Below the pieces are notes generated by a model, which saw only the letters and a list, made by a program, of their open reading frames with translations, did no database searches and was not told the DNA's origin. DNA of 64,000 nucleotides from Panopea generosa (Eukaryota > Mollusca > Bivalvia > Adapedonta > Hiatellidae), in assembly GCA_029582155.1 (NCBI GenBank), contig CM055895.1, forward strand, positions 12,856,770-12,920,769. The letters are read 5' to 3'. Position numbers and translations under genes: made by a program. Shown here piece after piece: positions 5,895 to 58,480 of this stretch. Position 1 is the stretch's first letter; every line of letters begins with the position of its first letter.

Positions 5895-6597
5895 ATAAAA
5901 TACCATGAACGTAGCATTAAGCTAAAGGTGATTAGAACAACTTGGTTGTGTTCATAAAATACCATGATCTGAACGTAGCACTAAGCTTAAGGTGATTAGA
6001 ACAACTTGGTCGTGTTCATAAAATACCATGATCTGAACACGGCACTAAGCTAAAGGTGATTAGAACAACTTGGCCGTGTTCATAAAATACCATGATCTGA
6101 ACGTAGCACTAAGCTAAAGGTGATTAGAACAACTTGGTCGTGTTCATAAAATACCATGATCTGAACACGGCACTAAGCTAAAGGTGATTAGAACAACTTG
6201 GCCGTGTTCATAAAATACCATGCTCTGAACGTAGCACTAAGCTAAAGGTGATTAGAACAACTTGGTCGTGTTCATAAAATACCATGATCTGAACATGGCA
6301 CTAAGCTAAAGGTGATTAGATTAACTTGGCCGTATTCATAAAATACCATGATCTGAACACGGCACTAAGCTAAAGGTGATTAGAACAACTTGGCCGTGTT
6401 CATAAAATACCATGCTCTGAACGTAGCACTAAGCTAAAGGTGATTAGAACAACTTGGTCGTGTTCATAAAATACCATGATCTGAACATGGCACTAAGCTA
6501 AAGGTGATTAGATTAACTTGGCCGTATTCATAAAATACCATGATCTGAACACGGCACTAAGCTAAAGGTGATTAGAACAACTTGGCCATATTCATTA
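5895..6597. repeat. 64-bp satellite, about 11 units, with a 192-bp higher-order repeat
   Basis: Units begin AAAATACCATGATCTGAAC and continue CACTAAGCTAAAGGTGATTA then AACTTGGYCGTGTTCAT. Starts fall every 64 bp from 5956 to 6532, with a shortened unit before them. Three unit variants (CACGGC; CTCTGAACGTAGC; ATGGC with a TTAACTTGGCCGTATTC junction) recur in the same order at 6148-6339 and 6340-6531, giving a three-unit period. Confidence 0.9.
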
Positions 6598-10852: not shown

Positions 10853-11095
10853 TCTCACTCACTCACTCACTCACTCACTCACTCACTCACTCACTCACTC
10901 ACTCACTCACTCACTCACTCACTCACTCACTCACTCACTCACTCACTCACTCACTCACTCACTCACTCACTCACTCACTCACTCACTCACTCACTCACTC
11001 ACTCACTCACTCACTCACTCACTCACTCACTCACTCACTCACTCACTCACTCACTCACTCACTCACTCACTCACTCACTCACTCACTCACTCACT
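10853..11095. repeat. (CTCA)n microsatellite, about 60 units, uninterrupted
   Basis: An essentially pure tetranucleotide tract of about 243 bp. It is open in all frames because the four-base unit contains no stop, so the His/Ser/Leu/Thr frame over it is not a gene. Confidence 0.97.
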
Positions 11096-15412: not shown

Positions 15413-16059
15413 TATTAAAAAAAATTTGCAAAGTCATAATGTACGTGTAAATGTAGTTGTACTGGGGTCACATGGTTGTAATAAAAGAAGAAGAATCAAT
15501 AGTTGCTTTTTAAGCATAAGTATGTATTTATTAGATATAAAAATTCAGATTATTCATTATGGCACAATGAAATAGACACTTATTTACAATATACTCTAGC
15601 AGTTGTGAAAACATGTATATGTTATTGATGCTGCTGGAATACATAGTGATCTAATTACAAAATACAAATATTCTGTATAAAAATAAAATATGTTATAAAA
15701 TTAACAACTTCCATATACAATATACCTTATTATCTTCAACCCAAGTGCAACATATATAAAACGTTACAAATCAATAACAAAACGTTTTCTCGCGAACTGG
15801 ATAATGATTCTGTTATTTTACCAGTCCGAAATATTTCTATATCACGTATCTAGGGCTGAGATAAAATTCTTGCATTGTGACATTGAAATTAGCTACATGA
15901 CGCGACATACCAGTATGCAAAAATATATGACGTAAATTATATGATTTAAAGTCTTAAAAACAATTGAGGTGAAGAAAAATGTTGAGTTAAATTAAATTGA
16001 TTATTCAAGAAGTTGTTTTGCAAGAAAAAGAATTTCTTTTTTTGGTTTGAATAGAAAAA

Positions 16060-18344: not shown

Positions 18345-18838
18345 AAAAGGATGGTTTACCGTTATATAGAAATGAATGTAAAGATTGCCAGGAAGTTATA
18401 CAGAAATGAATGTAAATTTAAATTTGCCAGGAAAACTATAATGATGGTTGTACAGAAATTACTGTAAAGATTGCCAGGAAGTTATACGGAAATGAAAATA
18501 GATTTAAATTTGCCAGGAAAACTATAATGATGGTTGTACTGAAATGAATGTAAAGGTTGCCAGGAAGTTATACAGAAATTAATGTAAATTTATACTTGCG
18601 AGGAACACTATAATGATGGTTATACAGAAATGAATATAAAGATTGCCAGGAGGTTATACAGAAATGAATGTGAATTTAAATTTTCCAGGAAAACAAAAAT
18701 GATGGTTATACAGAAATGAATGTAAAGGTTGCCAGGAGAACTATAATGATAATAATACAGAAATGAATGTAAAGATTGCCAGGAAAACTATAAAGATGGT
18801 TATACAGAAATGAATGTTAAGTTTGCCAGAAGAAAAAT
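18345..18838. repeat. Minisatellite built from two alternating units
   Basis: The unit TACAGAAATGAATGTAAAGA-TTGCCAGGA recurs about 12 times. A short form (about 36 bp) alternates irregularly with a longer form that adds AAATTTAAATTTGCCAGG and AACTATAATGATGGTT. No coding role is evident. Confidence 0.8.
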
Positions 18839-21800: not shown

Positions 21801-22465
21801 GTTAGTGAGAATATGTAGGCATGATATATTGGGAAAACAATAGTTCTAGCCAATTTTAAATGCCCTTTTAAAGAAACACAACAGGCTTCTGTTTTACTTA
21901 AATACTTCAATTCTTAACTTACTTTTGACTGGTTATTTATTTATTATATAGTCAATATCAATGAATTCATATGCAATTTTGCTGAAACCAGTCTAACATC
22001 ATGATTACCTGGCTCCTTATCTTAGACTTAAGATTTTAAGTATTTTAAGTATATGTTGGTGAAACAGGAGCCAGACTCTTAACACTTTTCAACATTCATT
22101 CCCTGAACTCTCCATAATACAGGCACAGAAAAGCTGGATATTAAAGGTGTAAGGATATTTTATCACTGAACAAGGAAGTCTGTATCACCTGAGTAACAAT
22201 TTGTATACAACTCTAATAAATAACTGTTATTAAAGACAGTTACTTATACATGTTTCTATTAATGGCAGAACACTCATTTTTATTTCTAAAAGAAAATATA
22301 AGAAATACAATTTACTAGAAAAAAATATTTCTAAAACAAGATACTGCAATGTAGAAATACAATTTACCAAAAAAAGAAAAAAATCTAAAAATATGATATA
22401 CCAGAAAAAATATTGAAAAAATGAATTACAAAGCAAATACACTTTTAAATACAAATCTAGAAATT

Positions 22466-22530
22466 TCAAAATGGATTGTTTCAAAATGGAATGTTTTAAA
22501 ATGGAATGTTTTCAAAATGGAATGTTCCAA
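22466..22530. repeat. Short tandem repeat, AAAATGGAATGTTT unit
   Basis: Four copies of a 16-19 bp unit, TTTCAAAATGGAATG. It lies about 120 bp beyond the stop codon of the transporter, within its likely 3' UTR or just after it. Confidence 0.75.
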
Positions 22531-22590
22531 TTGAGTACCAACCTTTTCAAGTAAATTCTTTTAACGTGGTAGAAATCATAAAAGTACTGT

Positions 22591-22596
22591 TTTATT
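22591..22596 (-). terminator. Candidate poly(A) signal for SLC15A4-like gene
   Basis: AATAAA on the minus strand, 56-61 nt past the stop codon at 22652. Another AATAAA lies at about 22278-22283, so the 3' UTR could be longer. The choice cannot be made from sequence alone. Confidence 0.35.
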
Positions 22597-22651
22597 TTGC
22601 AAGGAACACATAAAACATGTACAACCACTTGTACATGCATACATCTTATGC

Positions 22652-22917
22652 CTACATCTTGGTAGACACAGGATCAAACTTATCACCATCCTTGTCCATG
22701 CCAGAATTATGATATACATGAACACCAACAGCTTCAATATCAGCATCCTCCTCATCATTTTCATCAATTTTATTTTCAAAGTCTGGAGTACGGTATTTAT
22801 ACAACTTGGCTACGAAAACGAATACAACAAAGTTGACAGCAGTCAGAGCAGCTAAAAGGAACAGTAAATATTCCAAGTGGCCATTGTTTGGCTCTTCAGG
22901 GTACCAGTCTGAGGCAT
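22652..22917 (-). CDS. SLC15A4-like transporter, last coding exon
   Basis: Acceptor TTTTTCACAG precedes 22917, and the reading frame ends at the stop at 22654-22652. The exon completes residue 502 and adds 87 residues: DASDWYPEEP, then a membrane helix (LLFLLAALTAVNFVVFVFVA, the likely last helix), then a short cytosolic tail with an acidic run (DENDEEDADIE). The first 14 bases of the exon (ATGCCTCAGACTGG) and its acceptor are also the core of the minisatellite that fills the adjacent intron. Confidence 0.93.
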
Positions 22918-25900
22918 CTGTGAAAAAAAACACACAATATGTGTTACATTTCATATAGAGAACCAGTCTGAGGCAACTGTTTAAACAAACACTATTTATT
23001 ACATTTCATATAAAGGGAACCAGTCAGAGGCAATGGCAGAAACAAACATATTTATTACATTTCATATAGGGACCAGTCTGATGCAACTGTATAAACAAAC
23101 ACATATTAATTACATTTAATATAGGGAACCAGTCTGCAATGTTTATTACATGTCATAAAGGTAACCAGTCAGATACAACTGCATAAATAAACAATATTAT
23201 ATTTCATATAGGTAGCCAGTCAGAAACAAGCATATATTAATCAATATTTATTACATTTCATATAAGAAACTATTCAGCAACAACTGTATAAATAAACAAT
23301 ACGTATTACATTCATATAAGCCAGCCATGACAACTGTATAAATAAACAATATCTATTACATTTCATATAGGTAACCAGTCAGCAAAAACTGTTCCAATAA
23401 ACAATATTACACAAGTTCAATTTAATTCACTCAATATTTAATTTTTGGCCACCTGGCCTTTATCAAAAATTAAAAAACAATTTATAGGAAAATGGACGTT
23501 ACCTATCTGCAATATTAAATTTTCAATTTTTGATAAGGCTAGGTGGCCAAAAATTAAATATTGAGTAAATTAAATTGAACTTGTGTAATATGGTTACTTC
23601 CCTGAGGAAGATTTTTGAATGAAAATAACAATAAACAATACTTTTTTCATTTTATGTAGGTAACCAGTCAGCAAAAACTGTATAAATAAATAATACTTAT
23701 TACATTTCATATAGGTAACCAATCTACAACAACTGTATAAATAAACAATACTAATTACATTTTATATAGGAAACCAGTCAGAGACAACTGTATTCATAAA
23801 CATAATTTATTACATTTCATATATGTTACCAATCAGCAAAAACTGTATAAATAAACAATACATATTACATTTCATATAGGAAACCAGTAAAAGGCAAACC
23901 AGTCTTATGTCACCTGTAAAAATAAACAGTACTTATAACATTTCACATAGAGTCTGAACTAGTCAGAGACAACTGTAAAAACAATATGTATTTCATTTCA
24001 TATAGGAAACCAGTCAGAGACAACTATACAAATAAACAATACTTATTACATTTCATATAGGAAACCAGTAAGAGGCAAACCAGTCAAATGTCACCTGTAA
24101 AAATAAACAATACTTATTACATTTCACATAAAGTCTGAACCAGTCAGAGACAACTGTAAAATCAATGTTTATTTCATTTCATATAGGAAACCAGTCTGAG
24201 ACTGGCAGAAGCCAAGTACGTAGTACTTTAAAGTAACTAGCACCATACCAAGTATTAAGACCAAAACAAATACCTATTACTTAAACAAATACCTAGCATC
24301 AAAACAAGTATTTTGTCCAGAACAATAAGCTAGTACTAAAATAAGAACCTAGCATCAAAACAAGCATTAAGACCAGAACAAGACTTTGTAGTTAGCACTA
24401 AAATAAGTACCTAGCATCAAAACAAGCATTTAGACAAGAACAAGACTTTTTAGTTAGCACTTAAATAAGAACCTAGCATCAAAACAAGCATTTAGACCAG
24501 AACAAGACTTTGTAGATAGCACTAAAATATGAACCTAGCATCAAAACAAGCATTTAGACCAAAACAAGACTTTGTAGTTAGTATTAAAATAAGAACCTAA
24601 CATCAAAACAAGCATTTAGACCAGAACAAGAATTTGTAGTTAGCACTAAAATAGTACCTAGCATCAAAACAAGCATTTAGACCAGAACAAGACTTTCTAG
24701 TTAGCACTAAAATAGTACCTAGCGTCAAAACAAGCATTTAGACCAGAACAAGACTTTGTAGTTAGCACTAAAATAGTACCTAGCATCAAAACAAACATTT
24801 AGACAAGAACAAGACTTTGTAGTTAACACTAAAATAAGAACCTAGCATCAAAACAAGCATTTAGACCAGAACAAGACTTTTTAGTTAGCACTTAAATAAG
24901 AACCTAGCATCTAAACAAGCATTTAGACCAGAACAAGACTTTGTAGTTAGCACTAAAATAAGAACCTAACATCAAAACAAGCATTTAGACCAAAACAAGA
25001 CTTGTAGTTAGTATTAAAATAAGAACCTAACATTAAAACAAGCATTTAGACCAGAACAAGAATTTGTAGTTAGCACTAAAATAGTACCTAGCATCAAAAC
25101 AAGCATTTAGACCAGAACAAGACTTTGTAGTTAGCACTAAAATAGTACCTAGCATCAAAACAAGCATTTAGACCAGAACAAGACTTTGTTGTTAGCACTA
25201 AAATAGTACCTAGTATCAAAACAAGCATTTAGACAAGAACAAGACTTTGTAATTAGCACTAAAATAAGAACCTAGCATCAAAACAAGCATTTAGACAAGA
25301 ACAAGACTTAGTAGTTAGCACTAAAATAAGAACCTAGCACCAAAACAAGCATTTAGACCAAAACAAGACTTTGTAGTTAGCACTAACATAGGAACCTAGC
25401 ATCAAAACAAGCATTAAGACCAGAACAAGACTTTGTAGTAAGCACTAAAATAAGTACCTAGCATCAAAACAAGCATTTAGACAAGAACAAGACTTTTTAG
25501 TTAGCACTTAAATAAGAACCTAGCATCAAAACAAGCATTTAGACCAGAACAAGACTTTGTAGTTAGCACTAAAATAAGAACCTAACATCAAAACAAGCAT
25601 TTAGACCAAAACAAGACTTTGTAGTTAGTATTAAAATAAGAACCTAACATCAAAACAAGCATTTAGACCAGAACAAGAATTTGTAGTTAGCACTAAAATA
25701 GTACCTAGCATCAAAACAAACATTTAAACCAGAACAAGACTTTGTAGTTAGCACTAAAATAGTACCTAGCATCAAAACAAGCATTTAGACCAGAACAAGA
25801 CTTTGTAGTTAGCACTAAAATAGTACCTAGCATCAAAACAAGCATTTAGACAAGAACAAGACTTTGTAGTTAGCACTAAAATAAGAACCTAGCATCAAAA

Positions 25901-28900
25901 CAAGCATTTAGACCAGAACAAGACTTTTTAGTTAGCACTTAAATAAGAACCTAGCATCAAAACAAGCATTTAGACCAGAACAAGACTTTGTAGTTAGCAC
26001 TAAAATAAGAACCTAGCATCAAAACAAGCATTTAGACCAAAACAAGACTTTGTAGTTAGTATTAAAATAAGAACCTAACATCAAAACAAGCATTTAGACC
26101 AGAACAAGAATTTGTAGTTAGCACTAAAATAGTACCTAGCATCAAAACAAGCATTTAGACCAGAACAAGACTTTGTAGTTAGCACTAAAATAGTACCTAG
26201 CATCAAAACAAGCATTTAGACCAGAACAAGACTTTGTAGTTAGCACTAAAATAGTACCTAGCATCAAAACAAGCATTTAGACCAGAACAAGACTTTTTAG
26301 TTAGCACTTAAATAAGAACCTAGCATCAAAACAAGCATTTAGACCAGAACAAGACTTTGTAGTTAGCACTAAAATAAGAACCTAGCATCAAAACAAGCAT
26401 TTAGACCAAAACAAGACTTTGTAGTTAGTATTAAAATAAGAACCTAGCATCAAAACAAGCATTTAGACCAGAACAAGAATTTGTAGTTAGCACTAAAATA
26501 GTACATAGCATCAAAACAAGCATTTAGACCAAAACAAGACTTTGTAGTTAGCACTAAAATAGTACCTAGCATCAAAACAAGCATTTAGACCAGAACAAGA
26601 CTTTGTAGTTAGCACTAAAATAGTACCTAGCATCAAAACAAGCATTTAGACCAGAACAAGACTTTGTAGTTAGCACTAAAATAAGAACCTAGCATCAAAA
26701 CAAGCATTTAGACCAGAACAAGACTTTTTAGTTAGCACTAAAATAAGAACCTAGCATCAAAACAAGCATTTAGACCAGAACAAGAATTTGTAGTTAGCAC
26801 TAAAATAGTACCTAGCATCAAAACAAGCATTTAGACCAGAACAAAACTTTGTAGTTAGTACCTAGCATCAAAACAAGAACTAACGCTAAAAATTAGCATG
26901 GATATTTTAGCCTATCACTTTTTAAACATGCTGCACCATACCCTGCTCACTGGCAGACTAAAGGGGGGAGGTTTGGACCACCATTGATTGACAATGCACT
27001 TACTGTTCTATGGTTAACTTACCATCTTGTCTCCATGCCTTCACTATGACAACGATCAGAGAGGCTACGTAACTTCCCAAACCAGACGTCATGAGAAATA
27101 GACCCATGATCAGCCCTTGCATGAAAGAAGGAGCCTGGGTGTACGCAAACTCCAACCCTGTAAATGTAATTTGAAACTTTAATTTGAAATTATTTATTTT
27201 ACATCAATTCATTTTGCAGTTCTACAAGGAGGTAAATTCAGAGCCGTTGTTAGTGGGTAGAACCAGACCTGGGTGTGGTTTTTGATACTGATAGACCAGA
27301 AAGTCAAGTATTAATAGGTGATAGCTAAGTAGTAAATCTCAAACCCACATTGGACTACAGGCGACTGTTTCTCACGCATCATAAAACAGCCATAACATAA
27401 TAAGATGTACAGTCCAACCTGTGTAAGCGGTCAACTCTATTAGGCAGCCACTTGTCTTAAGCACTCACATTTTCTATTATCCATTTCTACATGTTCAAAG
27501 CAAATTAACCTGTATTAAGCAACAACCTGTCTTAAAAGGCCACTTTTACTAATTCCATTGACTTGCTGCTTAAGACAGGTTGACTATACATGTATACAAA
27601 AACAGTCGAGAATGGCCATGACATTTCCTTTTTTCTTCTTTTTAAATTACTGTTTCAAAAGTAATGAAATCACTATAGATAAAAATTTTCTATTGTAATT
27701 ATTTTTTAATTTATTTGGTAAAAATTAATAAATGCATCATGAAATCAGATACTTATCAAATTTCGAAGAAAAAAAACCCACATACATAACATGTGTTGAA
27801 ACGGTACTATTATACAATATGACATACAGGCATAAAACTGTTTCTTTTAAATTGCAATAAAATTGTATAGCTATAAATTTTGATTTTTTTTTTTTAGAAA
27901 TAAGTTAGCTTTCATCATGCAATTTTGAATAATGTTAAATTATACCATTCAAATATATTATGGATGATTTTGCAGTGTTTCAATATCAAATAAGTATGTT
28001 ACAGACATTCTGATATTATACAAACTGTTAGAGCTATATCATCCTTAAACACAATTATTATCACTACTTGAACAAAGAGTTCCAGGGTAATGTTGTGGTC
28101 CTAATTAAAGTAAAGTATATGAATGACTGCAGCATTACGAATGTTTACTCTATGGTCATTCTGTATTGCAGCAGATTTGTTCCTGCCAAAACTATATGTT
28201 CAACAGGAAGCATTCCAAGCACACAGCTGCCGTCTTTGCACGTACACATCCAATACACATAATGATTACAATAGTAACAGGAACAATACATTGATTGATT
28301 GAATATTTAGCGTCATTTTTATACCAGCGAGGGCTAACAGACAATCAGTTAACCTAATCGCTGTTTCCTCGGATCCTGAAAAGTTAACCGGTACTTGAGC
28401 ACACCTTATCTTCGCAAATAACTGATAACTTTCTCACTTGAATCAGTGGTGAGAGACGAATGATAATTAGACACAATGTTGTATTTCAATCATCATGGAG
28501 ACTGTTGCCGGGAGGGGATTGGGAACAATACAAACATACAGAACAAACTACAGGATGGGTCACTGCCTCCTTAGAAAGATCTGCTACTGTAATCTGCATC
28601 TTGGGAGGTTAAACCCAATTATCAGGTGCACCCAAGCTCACTCTCCTCTTTATAACCACTACATGATTAACCCTTTACTCCATAGATATGCTTTTTTCCG
28701 CACCAATAACAGAAGGCCTTTGAAAACAGTGCAGGAAGAGTTCAGATTGCTCGTGACGAGCAATCTGAACACTTCCTGCACTGTTTTCCACTCTGTCAGT
28801 TAATATAAACATAATTCACCCAATAATTCAAAAGTCTTCTATACTAGGTGTCCAAAGGCGTCTCCATTAGAGGTGTCCAAAGGCTTCTATATGAAGTAAA

Positions 28901-31900
28901 GGGTTAAATGAGATGGTGTGTATCAATGTAACAAATACTATACCTGAGATACTGGCGAAAACCTCACTCGATCCAATAAAAGCAAATTCTGGAATCTGAG
29001 CAAACATGGATAACTGCGAGGCGTTGAAAGTTTTACCGGCAAGCTCCTGCGTGATTGGTCCATATTCATCTATATTGTTCTTCCGTACAATCTCCATTAT
29101 TGCTGCGTACAACATAGCACAGGCTGCCAGGATCATGCCAATCCCTATACAGTGTGATCAAAGCATTTTATTATACAATTTCTATAATTATCTAATTACT
29201 AATACCCAGGTGATATCCTTAATAATAAAAAATTTGCTGAAGTTTTTAAGATGTATTTTGAACACCCGGAGTTTAATTTCACCTGTATTTAAAGAGACTA
29301 AACCTTTATCCCAGGTTTTTTTTTTTATCTTAGCAGTAAAACTGCACATTAATATCAAAGATTATATATTATGGATATTCTGTTCAACAACTTAAATTGT
29401 ATATTTTCTCTGTAGTGTAAAATTATTTATATTTGTTGACCAAATACTAAATCGCAGCCCATGATAAAGTAATTATTTGACCAGTGTCAGGTTATGCTAA
29501 GACTTTGACAAACAGAACAAAATTGTCAACTTTTGTATTAATGCCTTTCTCAAAAATATGATAAACTACAAGGCCGGAATCAACCATTATCTTTGAATGT
29601 GACCTTCATCTTTGTAATTCAATAAACTTTCCGCAGTAAGTCACAGTCCCCCATTTGATGCCAAATTACAGGATGAGAAAGATATGCACCATTCTAGTAC
29701 CAGTACTCGGACCTGGGAACTTTTGCTTACAGGACAAATGCTCTACTAACTGAGCTATAAGCCGGAATGCTGACATATATCTCTCCTTACAGGTAACATA
29801 AATATTGTGAAATATACAAAGTAACAATGCTCACCAATTCGTTGGAGATGTGTTGGACTCATGTTTCGTCGGGCCAACAAAGGGTAGACGATTATGTCCA
29901 TTATAGGTATCAATATAAGGATAATTAGGGTGTTGAAAATATTCAACATGGCCGCAGGAAGTTTTGCACTCCCGACAGAAATGTTCATCCTTTCACTCTG
30001 CAGGAAAAGGGAGGTGCTCATCTGAAATGCAGATATTTTTGACATGTTATTTTTTTTTTTTAAAAATCATCTGTGGATACAAAGCTCAAGCATTTGTATA
30101 AAACACTGGTTATTCGATGAAGAATAATATATAGTTTCTATTCAATTACAGGTAAACCTGTCTTAAGCAGCCAGTCATGGGAGAGAGCAAAAATGGCCTT
30201 TTAAGACAAGTTGTTGCTTAATACAGGTTAATTTGCGGTGAATGCATAAACATGATAAGTCACTGTTTAACAGTGGTGATTGTTTACGTATTGTCAAAAG
30301 GATAATTATCTATCTAAACATGCCAAAATAATATATTGAAAAGGGATTTCCTAACTTGACCTACGCCAAAGGTTAGACTAAAATAGATTTTCTGTTTAAC
30401 AATAAGTCTTATATCTTAGACAAGTCACACTCGTAAACTTACAGGGTAGTACCAAGCACATGTGGATAAAGTGTCTTGCTAAAGGACATCGTGTCATAGT
30501 GTATTATATACATGTACAGAGTAGGTAGCTTTAAGTAAAACCAGTAGCTTAGTTAGTTTGGTACCTTCGTTACTTCCCTTTAGGCCTGTGATCTAAATAT
30601 AACTAATACAGTGCATGGATTTCACACTCATTATTGTGACTTTTACATTGTTGAACTACGCCATATTCATTTTTGTGCGTTGATAACCATAAATGTTGGA
30701 AATATTGATCATACCTGCAGGTAATTATATATGTTATATTTTCCAATAAACAGCAGCATACTGTTTTGTATAATTGGAATCATTGAAATTATTTAATATA
30801 ATAAGTAAATAAGATATTTGTAAATGTTATATTGAACTGTCATTGTGTAAGCCACCATCACCGAACATGTTGTATATTGACTGTTTTATTGTATGTATCA
30901 TAGTATTTATTGTTTCTAACGTTTGTTTCAGAATGCATGATAGATCACTGAATATATATATGGAATGATTGGATATAGATAAAAATATTGAAAACTCTAC
31001 ATGTGTTCAATGTATCTAAATACCCTATTATTTGTTCTACCGGATCCAGCCCATCTAGGGCTTGGGGAGAAGGCGGTGACAATCCCACATAGATGAGGTA
31101 TATGTAATCAGATGGGAATTCAAAATAAAGCAATAGACAACTTGTATGGAATAATGACTTTAGGTTATTATCCATTGTTCTGTACAATATGAATATATAA
31201 ATTATATTTGGATGAGTATCCAGCTAAACATCCAATATAGTCTTCAGTTGGGAACAAGTTCAAATATATCTGTATAAACATCCCATTAATAGCACCCATA
31301 AACTAACAATGGCAAAAGTTCATGTTACTTACCTGAGAGTAGACAGCCCAGTAAACGATGATTAGAACAAAGATAGGAATCACTCTCATCACGGACCTGA
31401 CACCATCAACCATCTCATTATCATATCCACCCCCATGGCCTTTGCGGGCGTGGTTCCAGGATGGGTTGTTACAGCTGTTACATGATTGTCCGCACACTTT
31501 GAATGATGTAGTGAGGATACTACCTAGCAGAATTGATAGTAAAATTTGTTAATTCAGTTTTCTAACAATGTAAAAGAAATTGGTAACCTGCAAACAGATG
31601 GAGGTGACTGCTTAATACAGGTCGATTAAAACTAAAATTATAAACAAGAGGCCCAAGAGGGACCTGAATGCTCTACTGGCAACAGATGCTTTACAGGACC
31701 TCCATGCAATGCTACATGTAAAATATCTAAGTTCTAGGCCATGAACTTTCAGAGAAAATGTTTTTTAAAATTTCACTTAAAATGTGCTTATAAGCCCTGT
31801 GGCAGGGGCATTTGTGGTCAAATAATGCTGGTTCAAGAACTCATGTGAGATCTTACGGTTATAGAACTGCTGTGCAAGTTTGGTTAAGATTCAATGTGTC

Positions 31901-57690: not shown

Positions 57691-58240
57691 TCCCATGCAA
57701 GCGGTCAATGTTTCGTTGTTACTATGTTGTAAATGTATTTCAAAAATGTTACTATGGTGTATGTATGTGTATGTATGTACTGTAAAGAAAATCAAACTGA
57801 TAATTGCCATTATGAGCTGTATAAAAGACGTACAGATTTTAATAAGTATGAAATAATGCACAACTAACACTCTAAGCATAGTTAACTGTAATCAGTTACC
57901 CACGAGGATTTTGACGTGAGTTAGTGCCAGTCATTACCCTTTATAAGTTTGTCTTCTTTATATTGGACTCGCCATGAACTGTCCTACAAAAAAGTATTGT
58001 ATATAAGACATTCGCCGTGTGAACATTTGCGGTATCGCACTCTTTAACCAGATTTATAAGCTTATTCCAATTTTAATGAAACTGATTGATAATGTCAATG
58101 TATATAATTTCCTATACAGATAGCACCATTAGCACTCGAGTTTCATTCCTCAATTAATCAAAAGTGTCAAAACTGGCGACGTACACTCAGTAATAAAGAC
58201 ATTTTTGATCCAGTCGTGGTTACATATCGCTGCATTTCAA

Positions 58241-58480
58241 TAACTGGCAATGTTTTTGAGTATTTAACTGCCAAATGTATAAATAACTGTCAGTGTATTA
58301 GTGCATTTAACTGCAAAATTTATAAATAACTGGCGATGTTTTTGTGTGTTTTACTGTCAAATGTATAAATAACTGGCGATGTTTTTGTGTATTTAACTGC
58401 CAAATGTACAAATTACTGGCAATGTTTTTGTGAATTGAACTGCCAAATGTATAAGAAACTGTCAATGTATTGATTTTAAA
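58241..58480. repeat. 43-bp tandem repeat inside the foldback element
   Basis: Unit TAACTGGCGATGTTTTTGTG, TATTTAACTGCCAAATGTAT. Starts at 58241, 58284, 58327, 58370, 58413 and 58456, all 43 bp apart. It has no counterpart on the right half, so it arose or was lost after the arms formed. Confidence 0.9.

Follow-up and report, generated by a model that had tools for sequence, protein, structure and literature searches.

In human ABCA7, the first bases of the intron 18 VNTR are the donor GT of exon 18, and its units copy this 5' splice site. When a copied donor is used, one repeat unit is retained, and the two frameshift isoforms (14 and 2%) are read as use of a cryptic exon-18 acceptor and as unit retention, respectively. 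Moreover, the length of this array correlates with exon 19 skipping (PMC5954066). In a potato RdRp gene, an intron arose when a segment spanning an intron-exon boundary was duplicated in tandem, as indicated by 106 RNA-seq reads (PMC4974935). For internal tandem repeats in human paralogs, it is reported that minisatellite expansion within genes can activate cryptic splice sites (PMC2812944).

Here, we describe a minisatellite, array A, at the end of the last intron of a transporter gene, within a 64-kb stretch of DNA (hereafter the window). It resembles the ABCA7 VNTR in that the terminal unit contains a coding exon's functional splice site, which the other units copy. The ABCA7 repeat is built on a 5' site and has a 25-bp, length-variable unit, whereas array A carries a 3' site together with coding bases in a diverged unit of ~55 bp, abuts a terminal exon and is known from one sequence. 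Low-level use of the copied site and a correlation of array length with host splicing are described for ABCA7 only. The likeness to potato RdRp lies in the content of the duplicated segment, which there includes the branch site together with the pyrimidine tract, the 3' splice site and the exon start (PMC4974935); most units of array A carry a branch-like motif, a tract, an AG and an exon start (AG in 16 of 19 units, GTAAY in 11 of 16 decoys, short tracts, an exon part of 20 nt). The potato case is a single duplication that produced a new intron, whereas array A has about twenty copies and no new intron is claimed for it. Unlike array A, the repeats of human paralogs are not described in the accessible text of PMC2812944 as copies of an acceptor junction.

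Array A combines ABCA7-type and potato-type features: it is a minisatellite, probably founded on an acceptor, that includes coding bases. The first-pass annotation had called such an expansion out of a functional splice site into a coding exon unusual, and this is true in part. We found no published minisatellite that copies an acceptor plus coding bases among the titles and abstract starts returned by searches of open-licence papers on splice sites in tandem repeats and on intron gain, which is weak evidence of absence; against the claim, a donor VNTR (ABCA7) and an acceptor-crossing duplication (potato) are both in print.

The host gene and its terminal acceptor

The gene lies on the minus strand and encodes a POT-family transporter, as indicated by PF00854 matches in five of seven stretches (E up to 1), three of these matches being above Pfam's cutoff. 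Among PDB chains, a 200-aa C-terminal model joined from three exons matched human SLC15A4 (E 3.7e-25) and SLC15A3 (E 6.2e-25) alike, whereas an 88-aa middle segment matched SLC15A4 (1.2e-15) far better than SLC15A3 (1.1e-7). We therefore judge the name SLC15A4, under which the gene was first annotated, to be a fair one for what appears to be an SLC15A4-like transporter gene. Six exons joined by script keep one frame open through to the stop. The donor GATG/GTAAGT after 27023 is of phase 1 (slashes mark splice junctions), as is the last intron, which spans 4105 nt; an AATAAA is present at 22596, downstream of the TAG of the last exon. The coordinates of the main features are given in Table 1.

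Table 1. Features of the last intron and its flanking exons (positions in the window).
Feature	Position	Strand	Basis
Penultimate coding exon	27023..27157	-	sequence; POT match just under Pfam's cutoff; open spliced frame
Minisatellite B, 62-bp unit, ~42 copies	24291..26858	-	TRF; fills most of remaining intron
Minisatellite A, diverged ~55-bp units, 19 upstream units plus true junction unit	22898..24203	-	TRF rows, anchors, alignment
Junction of the most distal unit, TTCTGCCAG/TCTCAGACTGG, PWM 7.5	24201	-
Junction decoy TTTATTTTTACAG/GTGACA, PWM 8.0	24094	-
Junction decoy TTTATTTTTACAG/GTGACA, PWM 8.3, highest of 16 on AT-rich background	23913	-
Foldback (inverted-repeat) insertion splitting array A	23400..23595	.	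two 76-nt arms, 88% complementary, separated by 44 nt
Intron end of true unit, with CACAG preceded by a T8 tract and by a GTAAC branch-like motif at -27	22918..22956	-
About 20 exonic bases (ATGCCTCAGACTGGTACCCT) belonging to the repeat unit	22898..22917	-	per-position counts vs 19 units; TRF array start
Last exon, coding part (DASDWYPEEPNNGHLEYLLF... to TAG at 22652)	22652..22917	-	sequence, translation; C-terminal protein matches SLC15A4/A3 chains

Acceptors were scored with an approximate PWM, applied on AT-rich and uniform backgrounds. As references we took five of the gene's acceptors, each in phase with the donor before it, 30021 and the true site included. The last exon starts at the junction CACAG/ATGCCTCAGACTGG (22917, gene sense), which we read as the acceptor in use from the open spliced frame. 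With a PWM score of 10.9 it ranks among the best 0.5% of the 6759 AGs of both strands, and no AG lies between its GTAAC motif and the junction. The pyrimidine runs extend to 9 at the true site and to 3–5 in the junction decoys; the AATAAA lies 321 nt from the true site, whereas the distal decoy is up to 1605 nt away from it. A second AG occurs nine bases into the last exon, at 22908 on the minus strand (GCCTCAG/ACTGG, PWM 5.8); its use would yield an in-frame product three residues shorter.

The likely acceptor of the exon near 30.0 kb, at 30021, is weak (PWM 0.9), and the start of this exon is matched in SLC15A4. An in-frame AG 24 nt downstream, at 29997, scores 13.7, and its use would drop the residues MSTSLFLQ. 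Because these residues align with SLC15A4, 30021 is the better reading and 29997 was set aside as the acceptor of this exon; the two sites (minus strand) form a possible tandem-acceptor pair. Within an intron of the same gene lies the only Rfam match, to a tRNA (33.1 bits, 29698–29759, minus strand), which at a guess is possibly the head of a SINE.

The minisatellite and the coding bases it shares

Tandem Repeats Finder returned overlapping rows from 22898 to 24202, with periods of 51–55 and 91–181. The copies lie head to tail and their unit length is within 10–100 bp, as defines a minisatellite. The final unit in gene sense is the one with the functional site, and 22917 is in register with the other units. 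The initial proposal of a minisatellite that copies the 3' splice site before the last exon is thus well founded, since the true junction unit is accompanied by 19 related units upstream. Its count of about 20 decoy acceptors agrees with the number of related units, but the AG is kept at the junction in only 16 of the 19, being absent at 23222, 23135 and 23026. The wording given for most units, TTTATACAG and then TTGTCTCTGACTGG, proved to be a consensus: TTTATACAG occurs 6 times, TTGTCTCTGACTGG 3 times, and both together 0 times.

The two arms of the foldback that splits the array occupy 23400–23475 and 23520–23595, and short pieces similar to it are present near 15977–16000. No further copy of the array A unit was detected elsewhere in the 64-kb window at E 0.01, and no ungapped match of at least 12/14 to the exon 14-mer was found on the sense strand of the window outside 22400–26900. 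A 24-base unit pattern gave 0 matches in viral contigs, a comparison that is uninformative for an animal.

How far the repeat extends into the exon was counted position by position, ungapped from the GACTGG anchor, in the 19 upstream units. Agreement is seen at exon bases 9–15 in 16–19 of the 19 units and at bases 18–20 in 13, whereas no unit agrees at base 21 and the majority deviate at bases 1, 4, 8 and 16. By these counts the exonic share is ~20 nt, and the 14 bases given at first fall short of it. When the exon part was aligned to the units, the mean score was 17.1, compared with 8.7 when the exon start was shuffled 500 times (sd 1.0, max 12.4); this does not amount to 19 independent tests, because the units are related. 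The exon 14-mer agrees at 13/14 positions with the nearest unit, at 12/14 with two further near units and at no more than 11 with the others. Although the exon is matched best by these three near units, the idea that similarity falls steadily with distance was rejected, as the correlation over all 19 units lacks significance (Spearman -0.24 to -0.30, permutation P 0.11–0.16).

The shared exon part encodes SDWYP. Its Trp aligns with a Trp in the plant NRT1/PTR chains 9ui1, 5a2n and 4oh3, and the exon is therefore probably the source of the repeat; the Phe that human SLC15A4 has at the aligned position counts against this. An old coding junction probably founded the repeat, and the array would be its copy. 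Moreover, the earlier view that the array reaches into the coding exon is upheld by a working acceptor that is in register with the units, by a match well above that of shuffles and by a residue aligned with plant relatives.

Strength and reading frames of the decoy acceptors

None of the 16 junction decoys scores at or above the true site on either background. The weakest gene acceptor (30021, 0.9) is reached by 12/16 decoys on the AT-rich background and by 15/16 on the uniform one, and the median of the five phase-checked acceptors by 3/16 and 8/16, respectively. If 29997 is taken instead of 30021, among seven acceptors, the weakest is reached by 3/16 (AT-rich) and 12/16 (uniform). The decoys at 24094 and 23913 outscore four of the five phase-checked acceptors on both backgrounds, the true site being the exception. 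The most distal unit retains an exon-like CTCAGACTGG, and its AG at 24195, which is not at the junction, has the highest score in the array after the true site (PWM 9.1).

Most upstream copies have kept the AG, while their pyrimidine runs are short and interrupted by A. A GTAAY motif is present in 11 of the 16 decoys, the nearest at -19 to -24, and in six of these 11 an AG intervenes before the junction. AGs scoring at least 4 are hardly denser in array A (7.7/kb) than in the window on average (6.8/kb per strand), and those scoring at least 8 reach 2.3/kb as against 1.1/kb per strand. Since 30021, with a score of 0.9, is apparently used, weak acceptors seem to suffice, which favours the usability of the decoys. 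Thus, the decoys seem usable as acceptors, yet the true site stands well above them.

We then read the frame that each junction decoy would open after the 27023 donor. A stop is met within 11 codons in 13 of the 16 cases, and such early stops are, in our judgement, ordinary in AT-rich DNA. Use of a decoy had been predicted to run into a particular TGA. This describes six decoys; two others stop at a TAA in the same place, and three of the 16 stay open over the 20 codons read. The sequence thus allows truncated products. Junction-dependent nonsense-mediated decay is not expected to clear transcripts whose terminal exon is merely lengthened. Because use of a decoy would only lengthen the terminal exon, decay is not expected to remove the decoy transcripts.

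Probable origin of the array and possible effects on splicing

The sequence itself shows the junction that the units share, how far it reaches into the exon, the aligned coding residue, and the set of decoys with their reading frames; from these we infer a duplication history, a competition favouring the true site and some low-level leakage. A segment of ~55–60 bp, from roughly 39 nt within the intron to about 20 nt into the last coding exon, would have been duplicated head to tail, after which the array would have expanded in minisatellite fashion via slippage or unequal exchange. The exon-side copy, under coding selection, would have remained the acceptor in use, and the upstream copies would have turned intronic and drifted. 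The true site would be expected to win through terminal-exon definition and tract strength, because it has the longest pyrimidine run, no AG intervening after its branch-like motif and the shortest distance to the poly(A) signal. Low-level leakage to the decoys may nevertheless give a protein without the last helix and tail. We consider it reasonably probable that array A is such a passenger, born of tandem duplication across the 3' splice site, mostly outcompeted by its parent and yielding at most some truncated transcript. The likeliest view of the array is that of an elegant but passive by-product of tandem duplication, with modest decoy use possible.

A larger role for the decoys is doubtful, though it is the likeliest of the alternatives. 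Decoys that are transcribed before the true site (24201/24195, 24094 and 23913) could capture the 27023 donor and give truncated isoforms, with array length setting the dose. That 24094 (8.0), 23913 (8.3) and 24195 (9.1) exceed four of the five phase-checked acceptors, that an acceptor with a PWM score of 0.9 is apparently used upstream in the gene and that the AG is kept in 16/19 units all speak for such isoforms, as does the correlation between VNTR length and host splicing in ABCA7 (PMC5954066). However, 0/16 junction decoys attain the score of the true site, their pyrimidine runs are of 3–5, and AGs scoring at least 4 are barely denser than in the whole window. The poly(A) signals can be read both ways. 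Array A contains six AATAAA on the sense strand, compared with a shuffle mean of 1.5 (max 6, 300 shuffles), and these could end decoy transcripts early; but AATAAA occurs more often on the antisense strand (11), for which reason selected poly(A) signals were rejected, and the units of a repeat do not count as independent. A stronger form of the same idea, which we hold to be improbable, is that the array works as a length-tunable splicing rheostat, the number and quality of its units setting the share of transcripts that lose the last transporter helix. Most units would then act as weak acceptors, each opening onto a brief in-frame stretch that ends in a stop, and natural array-length alleles would alter transporter dose.

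Two other accounts appear very unlikely. According to one, the intron was selected as a splicing buffer, in which weak acceptor modules (array A together with a branch-point-like array B) hold splicing factors and slow the last splice or retain the intron, tuning the amount of transporter. About 94% of the 4105-nt intron does lie within arrays A and B, foldback included. Moreover, array B carries 31 TGCTAAC motifs in gene sense, 29 of them with TAG/GT (CTAG/GT) 42 nt downstream, and AGs scoring at least 4 across 24216–26900 number 40 in sense and 0 in antisense. Against this, the motifs of array B count as one event, because the array is one unit repeated, and in sequence of this composition, finding one such module in 62 bp is judged not rare; we attribute no function to array B. 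The other account, given as little credence, has the unit arriving at the exon as a dispersed satellite or transposon-borne repeat, from which the exon start would have evolved. The foldback element within array A would suit this origin, but the window holds no other copy in its 64 kb, the match spans the intron end and exon start in register, and the motif encoded by the exon part can be aligned, Trp included, with plant NRT1 chains.

The locus offers a graded set of about twenty natural acceptor copies, which lie in a fixed context and would compete with their own parent for one donor. It could serve as a test of how the spliceosome chooses one 3' splice site among near copies, of how functional sites can give birth to minisatellites, and of whether tolerance of such arrays requires that their copies have decayed.

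Homology between the two arrays of this intron was considered and rejected: the local score was 15.0, compared with a shuffle mean of 15.1, indicating that the arrays are unrelated. The region is rich in tandem repeats, as other arrays are present in the window at 5906–6595 (64-bp units), 18361–18829 (86-bp), 58239–58468 (43-bp) and 10854–11095 (4-bp).
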